Origin: a virus
Length of the DNA stretch: 42,013 nt
Reading direction: 5' to 3' (one strand)
IMG/VR virus record: IMGVR_UViG_3300017991_000187
Coordinates: 1-42,013 of that record
The notes under the pieces: model-generated
Seen by the model: only the letters and a program-made list of their open reading frames with translations
Database searches by the model: none
Told to the model about the DNA's origin: nothing
In this document: piece after piece, positions 1,555 to 40,497 of the stretch
Layout of the letters: each line of letters begins with the position of its first letter
Position numbering within the stretch: the stretch's first letter is position 1
Program-made: the position numbers and the translations under genes

Positions 1555-3354
1555 TTAGAACTTCTGGCGAATCTGCTCGATGGTGGGAATCTCTTCCTCA
1601 GCCATCACGCCTTCGGTCTGCAACAGCATTTGGATGATTTTCTCGCTGAAACCTCCAACGAGATTGACCTTCTCCTTCTTTTCATCTACAATACTGTCAC
1701 CATAACCATGCAGATTGACAGAGTGCAGCCACGTATTGGCAGACTGCTTGCTTCTTTTGTAACGCTGCCATGCGTCTGCCACATTGCTGCTGCTGCCACC
1801 ATACCCATAACCATAACCGTCCGTCCAGCACTGCATATCGCTGAGCAGAATAATTCGGTCAGGATGCGCATTCTTCCTAATCAAATACTCAAAGCAAAGA
1901 TGTCCATTCGTGCTGCATCCATTCGTATTGGCATTCGCCAGCTTCTTTACCATCTCCATCACGCTCGTGCGCTTCGTGTAGGAAACAGGCGCAACAGCCG
2001 TGGCGAATGCGGCCACAATGGACTTCTCCGAACGCTTCGCACAAATTGCCGCCAGTGTGTTCGCAGCGTTCTTGCAGGACATCTTGCTTCTGTCTGACAC
2101 AGCAGACTCCATCGAGCCACTGTTATCCGCGAAGACTGCGGTCTCGCCAGTCAGAAAAGGCACGTTCTCGCAAGCCGCCTCAGCCGCATCCTCGATGGCT
2201 TCCAGCACAGTCTTCAGCTTGGAGTCATCAATCGTTTCCCGCTCATCCTCATAGCCGTAACCGTAGCCATGCTGAGAGCCAAAACCCTGAAGCATCTCGT
2301 AAGCCATCGTGAAACGGAAAGGCAATTGCTTGCTCCGCAGCACTTCTTCCTTGTCCGACAACTTCTTCGCCACAGCGTCGATGACTTTGGAACTTACATC
2401 TGTTTTCATCAAGTTCCGCAGATTCCGCAAAAGGGCCATATACCCGACCAGATTCTTCTCAATCAGGTATTCCCATACTTCGCGCTTGGTTTTGTCATCG
2501 CGGCCAAACTGAGAAAGCACAACTTCCCAATTCGCCAATGACTTCGCAACAAGCTCCTTGGCCTTTTTGTCGAATTTCTCCTGCTTCGTCATTTCCCTAC
2601 GAGCGAAAGCGACAGGAGTTCCCTCTTCGTCCACTTCGCCTTTGATGAAATACTTGCAAACCGCATCAGGAAGAGGATAATCCTTCTTTCTCTTCCTCAC
2701 AAGCCGGAGTACATCCTTGAAAGTAGGATAGCCAGGGCTATCATACTTCATCAGGCCGCGCTCATTGAACTTGTGAAGAGCGTCTCCAATTCCACGGCTC
2801 AAGCAGTTCTTGAGGCTCTTGCTGCCAAAGAAATACTTGTGCAGGGCCACGACCGTCTTGACCTCATCAGGACGCCGGATAATTTTCGTAGCATACTGGC
2901 GCACATACTCCTGACAATTCTCATGGGCCGAAGCCAGCACGAGAAGAACTTGAGGAGTGAGACGAATGTTCATCTCATTGCGCAGCCAGTTCGCGATTGC
3001 CAGCGCGTCACGGGGATTCTCCGTACCCATGATGTCTACCGCCGTAGCGATAACTTCCTGAGCCACGTCGTCCAAATCACCAGCATCGACAAACTTGGCC
3101 TTTTCCCTGACAATGCGCAGCCTCTCAGCCAACTTGGAGTATTTTCCAGCCGCCCCCCTCTTCGCCACAACGGAATCACCATTGTAGTATCGAGGTTCGG
3201 AAAAAAAGGAGCCTCCCGTCATGGTAATCAGCTTCGTAGCAGGGCACTGAATCTCAAAAGCCACACCGCCTGCCCTGTTGACTGTGGCATTCGCAGCCTT
3301 CGAAGCTTTGTTCTTACCAACTCTCGACTTTAGTTTCTTCTTCATTGTTCCCAT
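1555..3354 (-). CDS. Ro60/Rsr-like TROVE-vWA RNA-binding protein
   Basis: 599 residues, start at ATG 3354 with AGGAGG 7 nt upstream. Residues about 60-390 form the helical TROVE ring region. Residues about 400-570 form a von Willebrand A domain with a complete MIDAS site: D410-N-S-G-S-M, the Thr of NGCSTNG near 475-482, and the Asp of LLSDMQ near 505. Ro proteins bind misfolded RNA ends in the ring and Y RNAs on its outer face; in Deinococcus, Ro joins PNPase through a Y RNA. Gly/Tyr-rich patches (GYGYGYED near 363, GYGYGYGG near 513) look phage-specific. A Y RNA unit lies directly upstream and three more copies lie at 17.5-18.1 kb. The gene ends in a strong terminator. Ro genes are known in some tailed phages. 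Confidence 0.95.
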   Translation of the reverse strand: MGTMKKKLKSRVGKNKASKAANATVNRAGGVAFEIQCPATKLITMTGGSFFSEPRYYNGDSVVAKRGAAGKYSKLAERLRIVREKAKFVDAGDLDDVAQEVIATAVDIMGTENPRDALAIANWLRNEMNIRLTPQVLLVLASAHENCQEYVRQYATKIIRRPDEVKTVVALHKYFFGSKSLKNCLSRGIGDALHKFNERGLMKYDSPGYPTFKDVLRLVRKRKKDYPLPDAVCKYFIKGEVDEEGTPVAFARREMTKQEKFDKKAKELVAKSLANWEVVLSQFGRDDKTKREVWEYLIEKNLVGYMALLRNLRNLMKTDVSSKVIDAVAKKLSDKEEVLRSKQLPFRFTMAYEMLQGFGSQHGYGYGYEDERETIDDSKLKTVLEAIEDAAEAACENVPFLTGETAVFADNSGSMESAVSDRSKMSCKNAANTLAAICAKRSEKSIVAAFATAVAPVSYTKRTSVMEMVKKLANANTNGCSTNGHLCFEYLIRKNAHPDRIILLSDMQCWTDGYGYGYGGSSSNVADAWQRYKRSKQSANTWLHSVNLHGYGDSIVDEKKEKVNLVGGFSEKIIQMLLQTEGVMAEEEIPTIEQIRQKF

Positions 3355-22792: not shown

Positions 22793-23148
22793 TGGTGGAG
22801 GCGGCGAGGAGTCGCACCTCGCGTCCAGTGGTGCTCTCGATAGGGCGTCTACACGCTTATCCAGTTGATTCTATATCTCGGCTCATCTGGCAAGCCTCAG
22901 GCGGCTGTTTACCCGCCACGTCAGGCCGTCTTTCCAGCCTGCCAACCTGTCTTTCCAAGCTGCCAGCCCTTGTGTCGTACCCTATTCCCGCTTACTAAGG
23001 ACGAATCTCAACGGTTTTGGGGCTGCCTAAGCAGCGATTCTGTAGGAGTTGCCAAGTAAATGGCATAGTCGGCTTTTTACGAGGCCAACCGACCAACCTC
23101 GACGTGCAGCCATTCTCGATACGCATCCTGTCGATACTACGCGCCCCC
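22793..23148 (-). ncRNA. ssrA: tmRNA
   Basis: 356 nt on the minus strand. The ends pair as an alanyl-tRNA-like acceptor, GGGGGCG/CGCCTCC, with A73 and encoded CCA. The 5' part has the conserved TATCGACAGG (compare TTCGACGGG). Pseudoknot 1 is unmistakable: GTCGGTTGGCCTCG, TAAAAA, GCCGAC. About 14 nt later the tag frame reads GGC AAC TCC TAC AGA ATC GCT GCT TAG, giving GNSYRIAA (AGNSYRIAA with the charged Ala). TA occupies -5/-4 before the resume codon, and the stop lies in a GCTGC/GCAGC hairpin as usual. The T-arm CGAGG-TGCGACT-CCTCG has an extra sixth pair. tmRNA with SmpB rescues stalled ribosomes; no smpB lies in the window. Phage copies are known. Confidence 0.95.
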
Positions 23149-30079: not shown

Positions 30080-30670
30080 TCACTTATTATACCATTCCCA
30101 ATATTTCACAACGAGAAAATCCCCATTGTCCAAAAACACTCTTGCTTCTTTTATTTCTCCATGTCCATCGGATGCAAGTGTGCAATCCGTATAGCCGCTT
30201 CCGATAAACATAGGGAGAAAACGATGATGCTTGAAAACCTCGTCGCCATTCTCGGAAACAATCATCCGCTTCACGTCGTAAAGATGGTCGTTCTGCATCT
30301 CGCGGGCATTATCCACCCAATCATCCAACATATTCTGGAACATGGTCTGATACCAAGTGCCCGCAAGAAATTGCTCGAAATGATTTGTGATGAGAACCAC
30401 CGGAACAATCCACCAATACTGCTTGTTCGTGTAAGGGCAGTCATACTTCGTTGAATCCAGAAGACACTGACAATCGACTCGCATCTTGGTCAGTGCCCTC
30501 CAAGGATTATTCAGCCGAGGAAAATTGCAGAGCGCAATCGAATCCATCTTGCCGATGTCACTGAACTCGAAAGGCACAAGATACTCGCCACCACAGAGAA
30601 CATCACCAATCTCTGGCTTGAGCATCTTGCCTGCTGGTGCCGGAATAACTTTAGCCAATGCGTCTTTCAT
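30080..30670 (-). CDS. unknown protein coupled to the DHH gene
   Basis: 196 residues from ATG 30670 (MKDALAKVIPAP), which shares ATGA with the DHH gene stop. Rich in W, Y and C (CQCLLDSTKYDCPYTNKQYWWIVPVV). Its last codons overlap the -10 box of the next gene. Function unknown. Confidence 0.7.
   Translation of the reverse strand: MKDALAKVIPAPAGKMLKPEIGDVLCGGEYLVPFEFSDIGKMDSIALCNFPRLNNPWRALTKMRVDCQCLLDSTKYDCPYTNKQYWWIVPVVLITNHFEQFLAGTWYQTMFQNMLDDWVDNAREMQNDHLYDVKRMIVSENGDEVFKHHRFLPMFIGSGYTDCTLASDGHGEIKEARVFLDNGDFLVVKYWEWYNK
30086..30111 (-). promoter_or_regulatory. probable extended -10 promoter TGG.TATAATAAG
   Basis: Perfect -10 (30086-30091) with TG at the extended position. The best -35 (TTGTGA, 30106-30111) is only 14 nt away, so activity would rely on the extended -10. 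It lies inside the end of the 30080-30670 gene. Confidence 0.45.
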
Positions 30671-31761
30671 AGCTGAAAATCCCGCTCCAAACGGAGACCA
30701 TGCTCTGTCCAAATCAGACAACCAAAACAATTGTTTTTCCTCTTCTCGCAGAACCATTCACCCTTGTCATTCCTTGAGAGCAAAGGCGTCATCCCATCCT
30801 CTGTTCTGAACTCTCCTGCTGTCCTGTGATGAGAACATTCTCTTTCATACATGCAATCTTCATCGTTGCAAAGAGGGAACTGCTTCTTGAGTCCGGCAAG
30901 CTCGATATTGACTTTTTCTCCAGCAACGGGCTTCTTCATCCAGAACGGCAGCACTTCACACTGGAATCCAGCCGCGCCCTTGTGACCGCCCCCACCATAT
31001 TTCTTGGCAATGGTGCTCACGTCGATGTGGTCTTTCGTGCTGAAAAGGCTGACCGTGTACTGCCTGCCATCGAAGACAAAGGGAATCATAATATCGTAAT
31101 CCTTGTCTTTGGCCGAATCAAAAAGACCGGAACCAGCCATTCCTTTATTGCAGGCAATGCAGTTGAAGCCTTCAAAAATGGTCTCGAAACCGTAACTCTC
31201 CAGATAGGATTGATTCTCTTTCGCATTGCGTTTGTGAATGAGCTTGCCCTTTTCGACAATCTCTTCAACAAGCGTTCTGTAATCTTCAAAAAGGCTCTTC
31301 CAGATAGGAGCATCCGGCGCGGTATCCATGCCTTCCATGCCGAAATGGAAATCGTCCGTCTCAGGCAGGAGCTTGGCCCAAATATCATAATCCGAAACCA
31401 AACGGACTGGATAGGGAATATCCTGATGGGGATGAACAAACTTCCAAGTCAGCAGGCAAGCGGCCTCACCGTCCTTTCTGAGGCCATCCTGAGCCTGCTG
31501 AGGGCCTTCAGAGGCCAGCGCAGTCTTATGATGGTCAATCCAGACTACTTGCTCTGTAATCGCAAGGAGACGCTCCCATTGGCCTTTTCCTTGAAGCGAG
31601 AAATCGACAATCCAGACTTCCTCGTTTTTGCCGATTCGCTGGAATGGGAAATCATCCTTGTAGTCCATCGGCATCAGTTCAATCTTCTGCTCAGGAAAAG
31701 CATGAAGAATGATAGCTGCCGAGCACTCGCCATCTAAGTCATTGTGATGCACCACTTTCAT
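30667..31761 (-). CDS. DHH/DHHA1-type phosphoesterase
   Basis: 364 residues. DHH motifs in order: HHNDLDGECSA (about 5-15), WIVDFS (about 50-55), VVWIDHHKT (D76-H77-H78), VSDYDIW (about 123-129), then DHHA1 with GGGGHKGAAGF (256-266). This is the NrnA/NrnB-type build; such enzymes degrade nanoRNAs or cyclic (di)nucleotides. A C-terminal Cys-rich extension (CNDEDCMYERECSHH...CFGC) is unusual and may bind zinc. The ATG at 31761 follows CAGGAG and a class-2 promoter. In this genome it could finish RNA decay or cleave signalling nucleotides used in anti-phage defence. Confidence 0.88.
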   Translation of the reverse strand: MKVVHHNDLDGECSAAIILHAFPEQKIELMPMDYKDDFPFQRIGKNEEVWIVDFSLQGKGQWERLLAITEQVVWIDHHKTALASEGPQQAQDGLRKDGEAACLLTWKFVHPHQDIPYPVRLVSDYDIWAKLLPETDDFHFGMEGMDTAPDAPIWKSLFEDYRTLVEEIVEKGKLIHKRNAKENQSYLESYGFETIFEGFNCIACNKGMAGSGLFDSAKDKDYDIMIPFVFDGRQYTVSLFSTKDHIDVSTIAKKYGGGGHKGAAGFQCEVLPFWMKKPVAGEKVNIELAGLKKQFPLCNDEDCMYERECSHHRTAGEFRTEDGMTPLLSRNDKGEWFCEKRKNNCFGCLIWTEHGLRLERDFQL

Positions 31762-34335: not shown

Positions 34336-34737
34336 TCAGAAGCCCCAAGGCATTTTTGGAGCTTTCTTGTATTTACGCTTCTTCTGATTTATCTTTCCTA
34401 AGGCCGCTCGTTTGGCCGCTTTCAGGTCATCACCACGATAGAGTTCCGCAACTCGATGTTTGCCTCCACCAACATACTTTGAACCTATCCTACCCCAACA
34501 AGCACAAGCCACAAAGTCTCCACTAAGCAGGGTATCATCATAGAGAACGACATAAAAATACTTATTATTGTCCGGGCCTTCAAGATTGAGGCCCTCATTT
34601 ACCTTCAGATTCTTTTCGCTGACAACGATTCCATACCATTCATCCATTATCTCGGCGTTTGAACTGATGTCCAGCTTCTGCTCAATCAACCTGCGAATCT
34701 TGATAAGCTGACGCGGATTGGCCTCAATAATTGCCAT
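34336..34737 (-). CDS. WGR-domain protein
   Basis: 133 residues. The C-terminal two thirds match a WGR domain: KYFYVVLYDD, then FVACACWGRIGSKYVGGGKHRVAELY, and DLKAAKRAALGKINQKKRKYKK. WGR domains bind DNA ends or breaks in PARP-type enzymes and occur alone in bacteria. The phage also encodes PolX, a 3'-phosphoesterase and a ligase, so a DNA-end role is plausible. The start at 34737 lacks a good ribosome site, while a small frame with a perfect site overlaps it (see 34686-34793). Confidence 0.78.
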   Translation of the reverse strand: MAIIEANPRQLIKIRRLIEQKLDISSNAEIMDEWYGIVVSEKNLKVNEGLNLEGPDNNKYFYVVLYDDTLLSGDFVACACWGRIGSKYVGGGKHRVAELYRGDDLKAAKRAALGKINQKKRKYKKAPKMPWGF

Positions 34738-37580: not shown

Positions 37581-37641
37581 TGACAGGGATACAGTCGGGA
37601 TGACAGCGGGGCCTGTAACTGTTCATCCCGACTCCCTGTCA
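37581..37641. other. long stem-loop between two genes
   Basis: About 22 paired bases: TGACAGGGA/TCCCTGTCA, a TACA bulge, GTCGGGATGA/TCATCCCGAC and CAG/CTG, around a 12-nt loop. It starts at the stop codon of the upstream gene and has no U-tract, so it is not a terminator. It may be an RNase III processing site or a DNA-level element. Confidence 0.6.
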
Positions 37642-38202
37642 GACCTTTTTCTTGATTGCGTTGTAACGCACCTTTGTGGTCACTTTCTTCTCGACGCAAC
37701 TGTCAATGGCTGCGACCATTTCCTTCTTGCTCTCGTCCTTCCGCGCTTCCTTCCGAAATTCACGAAAGCCCTCAGGGTTGACGCTGAAGTTTGTCACGAT
37801 GGTCACGACTTCATCGAACGATTTGCCAAGAACCTTGCGAACGCGCTCGATGGATTCGGGAGCGATAACCGCCGCGATTCTGGCATTGACCACACCTTCA
37901 AGTTGGCCTCTGCGAACCGCGTCCTTGACGGTCTCGAATGCCGCCTTCGTGGTATTCAGTTCGAAGCTTTCCGTGTCTGAAATGACCGCCTCACTTTGTT
38001 TGCCACGCACCCGAACCGAAAGCTCGTTGCGCTTTTTCAGCTTTCCACCCTCTTCAGCCACCTGTTTGCGGTGCTTCTTCTCGTCTTCCTTCATCTTCGT
38101 CAATTGCTTGTCCAGCTTGTGACCCTCGTCCACAAGCGTAGCCATCTTGCCCGAAGCATCGACCGCCCGAATGTCCTTCGCCTTGACTTTCCTTTTCTCC
38201 AT
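37639..38202 (-). CDS. unknown protein, coiled-coil start
   Basis: 187 residues, ATG 38202 with GAGGTTAAGGCA upstream. Residues about 20-60 form a charged coiled helix (LDKQLTKMKEDEKKHRKQVAEEGGKLKKR). The C-terminal half is a helical domain (GKSFDEVVTIVTNFSVNPEGFREFRKEARKDES). Driven by a class-2 promoter. No Ku-like features despite the neighbouring repair genes. Confidence 0.68.
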   Translation of the reverse strand: MEKRKVKAKDIRAVDASGKMATLVDEGHKLDKQLTKMKEDEKKHRKQVAEEGGKLKKRNELSVRVRGKQSEAVISDTESFELNTTKAAFETVKDAVRRGQLEGVVNARIAAVIAPESIERVRKVLGKSFDEVVTIVTNFSVNPEGFREFRKEARKDESKKEMVAAIDSCVEKKVTTKVRYNAIKKKV

Positions 38203-38258
38203 TGCCTTAACCTCGCTTTCTTTCTTAGCCTTAAGTTCGTCTTGTTCGTTGCCGACCT

Positions 38259-38286
38259 TCTATACGGCAAATGAAAAACTTTTCAC
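38259..38286 (-). promoter_or_regulatory. class-2 promoter motif before the 37639 gene
   Basis: GTGAAA (38281-38286), 16 nt, TATAGA (38259-38264) within GCCGTATAGAAGG. Confidence 0.6.
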
Positions 38287-38304: not shown

Positions 38305-39159
38305 TCAAACAAACTTCATAAGGTCTTCCCACACACACTCTTCGGGAAGCTTGTCATCTCTAACCCTGACGACTGAAGGATGCCGAAGACTGCCGGACTT
38401 GAAAACCTTATAGGTCTTAAGCTCGACAACAGCACCCTTGTATTGAGACCATTTCGCAACAATATCAAGTTTCAGACGGACATCAAAGTTGCCGACGTTG
38501 ACCAGTTTGACCAACTTGCCATCCTTGAAGACGCCGCAACCGATATTCTTGGCAATGTTCTTTCCCTTGTAAGAGTCCGCGTCCGAAAGTTCATAGTCCA
38601 TGATAACCATATCGACCGTGAACTGCTTCTTGACTTTGACCCAATAGGGGTTTCTCGTTCCTCTACGATAAGGATGCTCAGGTCGGCCCTTGACACGCTT
38701 CAGAATCAACCCTTCAGGCACTTCTTCGTAGTGCTTCCGAAATTCCGAATCCCAACGAGGATTCAAAAGAAAATGTTTCTGAAGAACAGGAGTCCAAGCA
38801 GACCAAGTATCCTCCAGCAGTTTTCTGCGGTCATTATCATCCATGCTTTCAATGTTCCTGCCATCCACTTCCAGCAGGTCGTAGACATCCATGAAATCGT
38901 GACCGAGCTTATCGCGCCGAAGACAGGCTTCCTGAGACCCGTATCCAAGCTCTCCTACGGAAATTGTGCCCGAAGGCAGAGAGGGAAGAGCAATCTCCTT
39001 TTCCTTGCCCGGACGGGAAAAGAATCGCTGGCTCCCATTGGAGACGCACACTCCCCAAATTCCATCACGCTTCGGCTCAGCAATCCATTCGCCGGTATCT
39101 TCATAGCGTTCGAGTTCGACTTCGGAAATCTCGCCAGCGCAGCCCATGTAAGCTTTCAT
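38305..39159 (-). CDS. ATP-dependent DNA ligase, minimal form
   Basis: 284 residues from ATG 39159, which shares ATGA with the phosphoesterase stop. Motif I is EPKRDGIWG with the adenylated Lys at about 30. Motif III is SVGELGYG, motif IV EGLILKR and motif V YWVKVKK, followed by an OB-fold with LVKLVNVGNFD and a VELKTYKVFKSGSLRHPSVVRVR end. It seals nicked or broken DNA with ATP. The short length fits LigC- or LigD-type enzymes. Third gene of the PolX, phosphoesterase, ligase operon. Confidence 0.92.
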   Translation of the reverse strand: MKAYMGCAGEISEVELERYEDTGEWIAEPKRDGIWGVCVSNGSQRFFSRPGKEKEIALPSLPSGTISVGELGYGSQEACLRRDKLGHDFMDVYDLLEVDGRNIESMDDNDRRKLLEDTWSAWTPVLQKHFLLNPRWDSEFRKHYEEVPEGLILKRVKGRPEHPYRRGTRNPYWVKVKKQFTVDMVIMDYELSDADSYKGKNIAKNIGCGVFKDGKLVKLVNVGNFDVRLKLDIVAKWSQYKGAVVELKTYKVFKSGSLRHPSVVRVRDDKLPEECVWEDLMKFV

Positions 39160-39548
39160 TTTGCCTTTACCTTTCTCAGAAGCCACTGATTGCCATCACG
39201 CCGCCAAAGCCTCCAATGTCCTCTCAGCTTGCCTTCGAGAATTTCGAACTTGACCTTATCCAATTCCCTCTGGTAGATAATCATATCACCGGAAGCCCAA
39301 ATCTCGACTGTGCCTCTTCCATAGCCTTCTTCGATTTCGCCTTCCCAAGACATGTAGTCAATCGAATGAAGTTCTGTTTCAATCGCCAGCCGAATTTGCT
39401 TTTCATCCTCTGGAAAGCCTTTCGGCAATGCCCAAGAAGGAGCGGCTCCATCCTCAGCAAACCTGAAATCATAATGAAGTCCGGCTCTCTTGGCTTCGTG
39501 TTTCTGGACAACAAAACACGTCTTAGTTCCTGTTCGTAGGTTCGACAT
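39156..39548 (-). CDS. LigD-type 3'-phosphoesterase (PE) domain protein
   Basis: 130 residues, the size of a single PE domain. The signature FVVQKHEAKRAGLHYDFRF gives His17, His25, Asp27 and Arg29; PSWALPKG follows, then ELHSIDYMSWEGEI and GYGRGTVEIW, the family's second half with its catalytic His (about 61). The spacing between the first two His is two residues longer than in Pseudomonas LigD. PE removes 3'-phosphates and 3'-ribonucleotides from DNA ends before ligation. It overlaps PolX by 26 nt and the ligase by 4 nt. Confidence 0.93.
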   Translation of the reverse strand: MSNLRTGTKTCFVVQKHEAKRAGLHYDFRFAEDGAAPSWALPKGFPEDEKQIRLAIETELHSIDYMSWEGEIEEGYGRGTVEIWASGDMIIYQRELDKVKFEILEGKLRGHWRLWRRDGNQWLLRKVKAK

Positions 39549-40449
39549 AATCCATGTGCAGAAGTTTGAAAATGAGTTCTTCGGTTTCGCCAGCGACCTT
39601 GACCTCTTCGCCGCCCATCATCTTGAAAAGCCCGTACTCGTTGAGCTTCATGCCCATCCTCTTGGCTTTCGACCTCATAGAAATGTTGAACTGCTTCGAG
39701 CCGGTAAAGTAAAGAGTACAGGCTCCGAAAGATTCGGGTTCCACCAGCCGGAAATCAGCTTTGATTCCCTTCACTCGACCGGAAGACTTCGTGCTGCCGG
39801 AAGTTTCCACCCTGTCCATCAGCTTCTCGCAGACCGCCATCACAGTCTCGGCGTTTTCATCCGTGACAGCAATGGCAATGTCCAAATCGCCAATGGTTTC
39901 TTTCTTGCGCCGATAAGAACCACAGGCTTTGACATCCATAACTGCGGCAATCCGACGAAGCTTTGCCAGAAATGGCTCAACAATCTTCTCAGCTTTTGCC
40001 AAGGGAGTCCTGCCGTCACCTTTGCCCACCATTGCGGCCACGCCTTCCTTCACCTGTTTGGGAAAGCTGACACCGGATTCGATAAGAGCCTGAACCTCAG
40101 CCACGGTTTGAACCTTGCGCTCGTCGTAAAGCTGCTTCGCTTTGGCAGGGCCGATGCCCGGAATGGAAAGGAGTTCCAGATACTGCGAATAATCTCTGCG
40201 AAGCTCCTCCAGTTTCGGGCATGTTCCAGTCTCCGCAATCTCCCGAATCTTGCAGGCAATCTTCTCCCCAATGCCATCGACTTCACCAGAAGAGATTGTC
40301 TCAAGATTGATAGAGGGAAGCTCCTCGACTGTGCTTGCAGCCCTTTGGTAGGCCCTGGCCTTGAACTTGTTCTCTCCAGCCAGAGATGAAAGATTCGAGA
40401 GAAGCCTGAGTTTTCCCGCCACGTCTTTTCTCATTGTCGCTGTGCTCAT
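39523..40449 (-). CDS. polX: family X DNA polymerase, without PHP domain
   Basis: 308 residues, ATG 40449 with AAAGGA upstream. Residues 1-70 form the 8-kDa helix-hairpin-helix end-binding domain (KFKARAYQRAAST; VDGIGEKIACKI). Residues 95-108 are the fingers hairpin (IPGIGPAKAKQLY). The nucleotidyl-transfer site is GSYRR (177-181), D188-L-D190, and D232 in KADFRLV; then TGSKQFNISMRSKAKRMGMKLNEYGLF. Bacterial PolX usually carries a PHP exonuclease domain, which is missing here, as in viral enzymes. It fills short gaps at breaks. First gene of the repair operon, behind a class-2 promoter. Confidence 0.95.
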   Translation of the reverse strand: MSTATMRKDVAGKLRLLSNLSSLAGENKFKARAYQRAASTVEELPSINLETISSGEVDGIGEKIACKIREIAETGTCPKLEELRRDYSQYLELLSIPGIGPAKAKQLYDERKVQTVAEVQALIESGVSFPKQVKEGVAAMVGKGDGRTPLAKAEKIVEPFLAKLRRIAAVMDVKACGSYRRKKETIGDLDIAIAVTDENAETVMAVCEKLMDRVETSGSTKSSGRVKGIKADFRLVEPESFGACTLYFTGSKQFNISMRSKAKRMGMKLNEYGLFKMMGGEEVKVAGETEELIFKLLHMDYVEPTNRN

Positions 40450-40469
40450 TTGCTTTTCCTTTCTGCCCT

Positions 40470-40497
40470 TCTATACGGAAGCCTCGAAAATAATGAG
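40470..40497 (-). promoter_or_regulatory. class-2 promoter motif before the repair operon
   Basis: TTCCGTATAGAAGGG with TATAGA at 40470-40475. The -35 position holds CTCATT, unlike the TGAAA of the other three sites. PolX starts 21 nt downstream. Confidence 0.55.

Follow-up and report, generated by a model that had tools for sequence, protein, structure and literature searches.

Introduction

Bacterial LigD (PE-LIG-POL) unites a 3′-phosphoesterase (PE), a ligase and a primase-type polymerase in a single fused protein. Characterised PEs have both 3′-phosphatase and phosphodiesterase activity (PMC8656161). In the Ku, Pol, PE, Lig operon of Methanocella paludicola, a cellular system, a primase-type polymerase, PE and ATP ligase are encoded by separate, co-expressed genes together with Ku (PMC4797286). 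Compact stand-alone PEs are found in Korarchaeum (3p4h) and Methanosarcina (3p43); these are also cellular, and at the examined loci related stand-alone PE genes had no link to PolX or to a small ligase. Bacterial and archaeal family X DNA polymerases (PolX) have 8-kDa, palm and thumb domains with an Asp triad and combine gap filling with 3′ processing; a PHP domain is present, at the C-terminus in the described architecture of bacterial PolX1 (PMC12926913). Among phages, Escherichia phage vB_EcoM_IME392 has a DNA ligase gene immediately downstream of the gene for a PHP-less PolX; no PE was detected there, and the ligase, of 647 aa, is far longer than the one described below.

Here we analysed a locus in which PolX, PE and ATP-dependent ligase genes follow one another on the minus strand (40449-38305) of a viral contig. 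The window, i.e. the whole stretch of DNA analysed, is the complete IMG/VR record IMGVR_UViG_3300017991_000187 (42,013 bases, classed as linear). Two of its sister records, G242 and G243, are 152 and 181 kb long, which suggests that the window covers only part of its genome; it is probably a piece of a larger phage genome. The locus resembles the M. paludicola operon in having separate and, by prediction, co-expressed genes for polymerase, PE and ATP ligase, but its polymerase is PolX, the record contains no Ku and the genes belong to a phage. It shares three activity types and the PE active-site residues with LigD, but the genes are separate, the polymerase is PolX and its PE does not belong to the main LigD PE group. 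Cellular PolX carries PHP, whereas the phage PolX lacks it, and the 3′-processing role plausibly resides in the separate PE (fused to PolX in another viral lineage, L121/L122).

Results

Organization of the locus

The original prediction of three overlapping genes was borne out, with two refinements. The start of the PE gene overlaps the end of the PolX gene by 26 nt, and the ligase most likely starts at ATG 39159 and not at GTG 39186, the alternative start chosen earlier, because the former overlaps the PE stop codon in the sequence ATGA and is preceded by a purine-rich stretch. Coordinates of the features are collected in Table 1.

Table 1. Coordinates and context of features in the 42,013-base window
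Feature	Position	Strand	Basis or context
PolX (family X DNA polymerase without PHP domain)	39523..40449	-	308 aa; Pfam, PDB match, residues
Stand-alone LigD-type 3′-phosphoesterase (PE)	39156..39548	-	130 aa; Pfam, PDB match, alignments
ATP-dependent DNA ligase	38305..39159	-	284 aa; Pfam, phrog_114, AlphaFold and Foldseek, motifs
Promoter-like element CCGTATAGAAG, 11 bases	40468..40478	-	19 nt upstream of the PolX start codon; putative beginning of the unit
Second exact copy of CCGTATAGAAG	38257..38267	-	between the ligase and gene 37639-38202; putative limit of the unit
Third exact copy of CCGTATAGAAG	31787	-	precedes DHH-family gene 30667-31761
One-mismatch copy of CCGTATAGAAG	23489	-	about 340 bases upstream of the tmRNA gene
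tmRNA gene	22793-23148	-	Rfam RF00023, 88.4 bits, full model length; missed by ARAGORN
WGR protein	34336-34737		Pfam 7.8e-5, weak; about 3.6 kb from the trio
Ro60/TROVE-like RNA-binding protein	1555-3354	-	phrog_850, 9.9e-51; several large phages have genes of this kind

Exact copies of an 11-base promoter-like element lie on both sides of the trio. In the window, the element has four matches with at most one mismatch, against 0.25 expected by chance, and all four are on the minus strand; we regard it as a putative phage promoter. Given the gene overlaps and the bracketing by the repeated element, the three genes would form one transcription unit, which supports the earlier proposal of a modular, likely co-transcribed set. 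In a wider form, CCGTATAGA(A/G)G, the repeated element is found upstream of gene starts and is often preceded by a TGnTGAAA-like stretch. A short-pattern search of four sister loci (L113-L116) did not find it. PADLOC, applied to the trio and its neighbours, returned no defence-system match.

The complete trio was found in one metagenomic contig only, and single-protein scans of viral contigs with the PE, PolX and ligase gave no confirmed relative. Among 50,697 phage records, tblastn revealed no detectable PE, and PolX was found in only 28, at least two of which look bacterial on inspection. It is therefore very unlikely that the three genes came together by chance. ‘Listeria’ and ‘Staphylococcus’ phage matches to PolX, when examined, turned out to be full-length 570-aa PolX beside housekeeping-like genes; we interpret them as bacterial contigs and set them aside.

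Domains and active-site residues of the three proteins

The polymerase has the 8-kDa, palm and thumb domains and the Asp triad of family X. Pfam detected thumb (6.8e-24), HHH_8 (4.8e-14) and palm (2.3e-9), an HhH is present, and the triad (D188, D190, D232) is intact. The best PDB match, Thermus PolX (8.9e-39), aligns end to end through its polymerase half; the phage protein stops past the thumb and has no C-terminal PHP domain. Its score against PRK08609, the equivalog model for bacterial PolX1, is 151 bits, below the cut-off of 426. K63 and K67 align with the lyase lysines K68 and K72 of Pol beta. The AlphaFold model is poor (pLDDT 63), and its Foldseek matches to Pol beta merely agree with the sequence result.

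The second protein scored 84.3 bits (7.8e-24) against Pfam LigD_N, whose cut-off is 31.1, and matched Korarchaeum PE 3p4h at 9e-24; it is 46-48% identical to the Korarchaeum and Methanosarcina PEs. It belongs to the LigD_N family by this score and by all six active-site residues: H17, H25, D27, R29, H61 and Y65 correspond to H42, H48, D50, R52, H84 and Y88 of the Pseudomonas aeruginosa PE, for which their roles have been described (PMC8656161). Alignments show that Q15, S38 and E59 are also kept. Only 11 residues precede the core, and the N-terminal extension (R14, R15 and E21 in P. aeruginosa) is absent. This extension is tied to phosphate removal by PE (PMC8656161, PMC4797286) and is also missing in some other species (PMC4797286). 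Because of its absence, the phage PE may only remove 3′ nucleotides and have no 3′-phosphatase activity. Before LHYD it has a two-residue AG insertion, which is absent from the Korarchaeum and Methanosarcina proteins. The insertion was seen in 31 of 37 viral loci (28 loci having been selected with a pattern that contains AG, and some being repeat fetches of the same contigs) versus none of 79 readable cellular loci.

The third protein has the nucleotidyltransferase motifs with KxDG and the OB fold of ATP-dependent DNA ligases. It scored above the cut-off for Pfam DNA_ligase_A_M (1.5e-7) and matched phrog_114, a family of ATP-dependent DNA ligases, at 8.8e-22; its AlphaFold model (pLDDT 73) was matched by Foldseek to ATP-dependent DNA ligases at 7e-15. 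The motifs are KRDG (motif I), EGLILK, WVKVK and a C-terminal RVRDDK.

Three of four sister records carry an NAD+-dependent ligase

Sister contigs (L113-L116) encode a neighbouring ATPase 50-57% identical to that of the window and, beside each, a relative of the 187-aa gene 37639-38202. The window has the trio immediately upstream of the block that it shares with these contigs. In three of the four sister records (G241, G242, G243) an NAD+-dependent ligase lies upstream of the common block, at a distance of about 0.7-1.4 kb in L116, a few kb in L114 and ~10 kb in G242. None of the four sister records has a PolX, PE or ATP ligase of the window families, and the 42 kb window record has no NAD+ ligase. 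ATP and NAD+ ligases have been described as mutually exclusive across DNA viruses (PMC9503650) and in jumbo phages (PMC7824862). Since the sister phages have an NAD+ ligase and the two ligase types exclude each other, the ATP ligase of the trio is probably the general ligase of this phage.

PE is repeatedly coupled to PolX or ligase in viruses

Scanning with an alignment of three viral PEs revealed 28 viral PE loci. A first alignment scan had given nine and left the trio looking like a one-off, a view that the later scan overturned. In L121 and L122, PE is fused to PolX in a protein of 376 aa, detected by LigD_N (1.6e-24) together with HHH_8, palm and thumb. It consists of PE (2-120), the 8-kDa domain (138-206), palm (222-286) and thumb (317-376), and the Asp triad is present. 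The two contigs (46.5 and 235 kb) are 98% identical over 10 kb and therefore represent one lineage. In the fused PolX, the counterparts of Pol beta K68/K72 are absent, as is much of the fingers region; PolX lyase chemistry is thus not a common feature of these systems. An RtcB-type RNA ligase gene lies ~1.5 kb downstream of the fusion in L122 (7661-8830). The window and L121 PEs are sisters in the PE tree (support 99/85). The PolX tree is without resolution and does not mirror this pairing.

PE-ligase fusions of 436-556 aa were found in L125, L126, L127, L130/L131, L132/L133 and L145. All of them contain KxDG except L145, whose PE part was detected by phmmer and not by Pfam. They form a separate viral group in the PE tree (98/96), and the fused ligase of L126 belongs, like the window ligase, to phage family phrog_114. 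Elsewhere, a ligase gene directly follows PE (L148), or a ligase-like gene lies 1.3-2.6 kb or less from it (L142-L144). Given the viral PE-PolX and PE-ligase fusions, coupling of PE, PolX and ligase parts recurs in viruses. Our searches of open-licence papers gave no account of either a PE-PolX protein or a viral fusion of PE to ligase.

Independent occurrence of the genes, which the original prediction had treated as evidence against a joint system, was seen in part: each gene also stands alone in other viruses, PE with neither PolX nor ligase nearby in L001-L003, a PolX relative away from PE and ligase in L103, and a ligase relative away from PE and PolX in L105, but the fusions exist alongside them.

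Viral PEs also occur in other contexts. A 1346-aa protein on a 188 kb contig (L005:4186-8226) contains an SNF2 helicase, a PE with RRAGTHYD and a weak DNA ligase domain. On two viral contigs (L008:5353-6396 and L009), a P-loop kinase-like AAA_28 domain is fused to PE; L009 has a gene for a small ATP ligase as well. PE is fused to a TFIIS-type zinc ribbon on a 113 kb viral contig (L136:4914-5720). In the PE-like proteins of L137, L138 and L147, the position of the catalytic tyrosine is E in the alignment, which suggests that their activity is altered or lost.

Relation to LigD and Ku

The original prediction described the locus as a rebuilt LigD that joins ends without Ku. The three activity types agree with the first part of this description, but the polymerase belongs to family X by Pfam and is not primase-type (AEP), and LigD/NHEJ equivalog cut-offs were not reached (TIGR02777, 98.3 bits against 144; TIGR02779, 49.9 against 227.75). 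The main LigD PE group (98/95 and 96/96) leaves out the window PE, with some uncertainty as the latter is a long branch in one of the two PE trees; a smaller Bacteroidota-type LigD group is separate from the main one. Derivation of the window PE from a host LigD is not supported by these trees.

The claim of Ku-less end joining is not supported: no Ku was found in the 42 kb record, but this is probably a fragment, so the absence shows little, and nothing indicates double-strand ends as the substrate. The WGR protein, suggested as a possible end-binding partner, was rejected in this role: a terminator-like hairpin and a sigma-70 consensus without mismatch mark it off as a separate unit, its Pfam match is weak, and no phage relatives of it were found.

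In Chloroflexota, Ku is present in 45/45 genomes with fused PE versus 7/18 with stand-alone PE alone. Among 31 genomes with stand-alone PE (archaea, Chloroflexota, candidate phyla and others; mostly drafts), Ku was found in 5 and PolX above cut-off in 15. PE without Ku is thus common in cells, and the presence of PE does not imply end joining. The idea that PE pairs with cellular PolX in Chloroflexota was rejected, PolX being present in 5/18 genomes with stand-alone PE versus 133/201 overall; cellular PolX carries PHP, so this result is not directly relevant to PHP-less PolX.

Discussion

On balance, we favour the view that the trio is a viral module for 3′-end healing, gap filling and nick sealing, whose main targets in phage DNA would be gaps and single-strand breaks. 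The enzyme activities, step order, substrate and physical cooperation that we infer would be as follows. PE would remove a blocked 3′ end (a 3′-phosphate, a 3′-ribonucleotide or a short displaced tail) to leave 3′-OH; PolX, gripping the downstream side with its 8-kDa domain, would fill the short gap; the ATP ligase would seal the nick last. PE would thereby take over, in trans, the 3′ processing for which bacterial and archaeal PolX have the PHP domain in cis. Replacement of the PHP domain of cellular PolX by PE, which the original prediction had not envisaged, is the most plausible relationship, because the phage PolX has no PHP and the PE adjacent to it here, or fused to it in L121, has an overlapping activity in characterised members.

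Double-strand end joining by a LigD split into separate proteins, with PolX standing in for the primase-type polymerase and with Ku or another end binder supplied by the host, encoded in the missing part of the phage or simply unneeded, seems unlikely to us. The set of activities does parallel LigD, split archaeal Lig/Pol/PE operons perform genuine NHEJ (PMC4797286), eukaryotic NHEJ uses PolX and a noncanonical PolX adjoins LigD in Alphaproteobacteria (PMC9226535), and Ku was found in eleven phages of one survey (PMC8136500). Of the NCBIfam models, that of the NHEJ ligase domain comes nearest to the ligase, at 2.6e-13 and far under its cut-off. By sequence, PolX K252 aligns with Pol beta D276, on our reading the position reported to be basic in Thermus PolX, TdT and Pol mu (PMC9226535). 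However, Ku is absent from the record, and next to the trio no further protein was recognised as end-bridging. Pfam revealed neither BRCT nor any other Ku-interaction domain in PolX, most genomes with stand-alone PE lack Ku, and the main LigD PE group, in which every fused PE from Chloroflexota occurs together with Ku, does not include the window PE.

Short-patch base excision repair, in which PolX would remove the 5′-dRP that remains once an abasic site has been cut and fill in, PE would clean the 3′ side instead of an AP endonuclease and the ligase would seal, is likewise improbable. It could draw on K63/K67 of PolX, on base excision repair by bacterial PolX in vitro via the PHP domain (PMC6616362) and on a eukaryotic DNA virus that pairs PolX with an AP endonuclease for this pathway. 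Yet the lysine pair is missing in the fused viral PolX and in most compared phage PolX, neither a glycosylase nor an AP endonuclease was recognised next to the trio, and PE is not known to cut abasic sites. The fusion without lyase lysines and the want of a recognised end-bridging protein in the record make the base-excision and end-joining versions less likely. We consider it very doubtful that an ATP ligase merely supplanted the NAD+ ligase and that PolX and PE were carried along without a joint function: the sister contigs, which lack all three genes and have an NAD+ ligase ahead of the shared block, and the solitary occurrence of each gene in other viruses fit such a replacement, but the key residues of PE and PolX are intact and PE-PolX and PE-ligase fusions recur.

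More broadly, and only tentatively, we suggest that viruses evolved, apart from LigD, a PE-centred family of break-repair systems (PE-PolX, PE-ligase and the trio) in which PE replaces PHP; in some of them, PolX itself may bridge double-strand ends and make Ku unnecessary for joining. Proteins of the PE-PolX type are small single-chain enzymes that can be directly purified and assayed. The tie of PE to PolX, by an operon here and by fusion elsewhere, suggests a viral form of end healing that is distinct from Ku-LigD NHEJ, and raises the question of whether phages counter nicking or oxidising damage with a single-strand break repair of their own.
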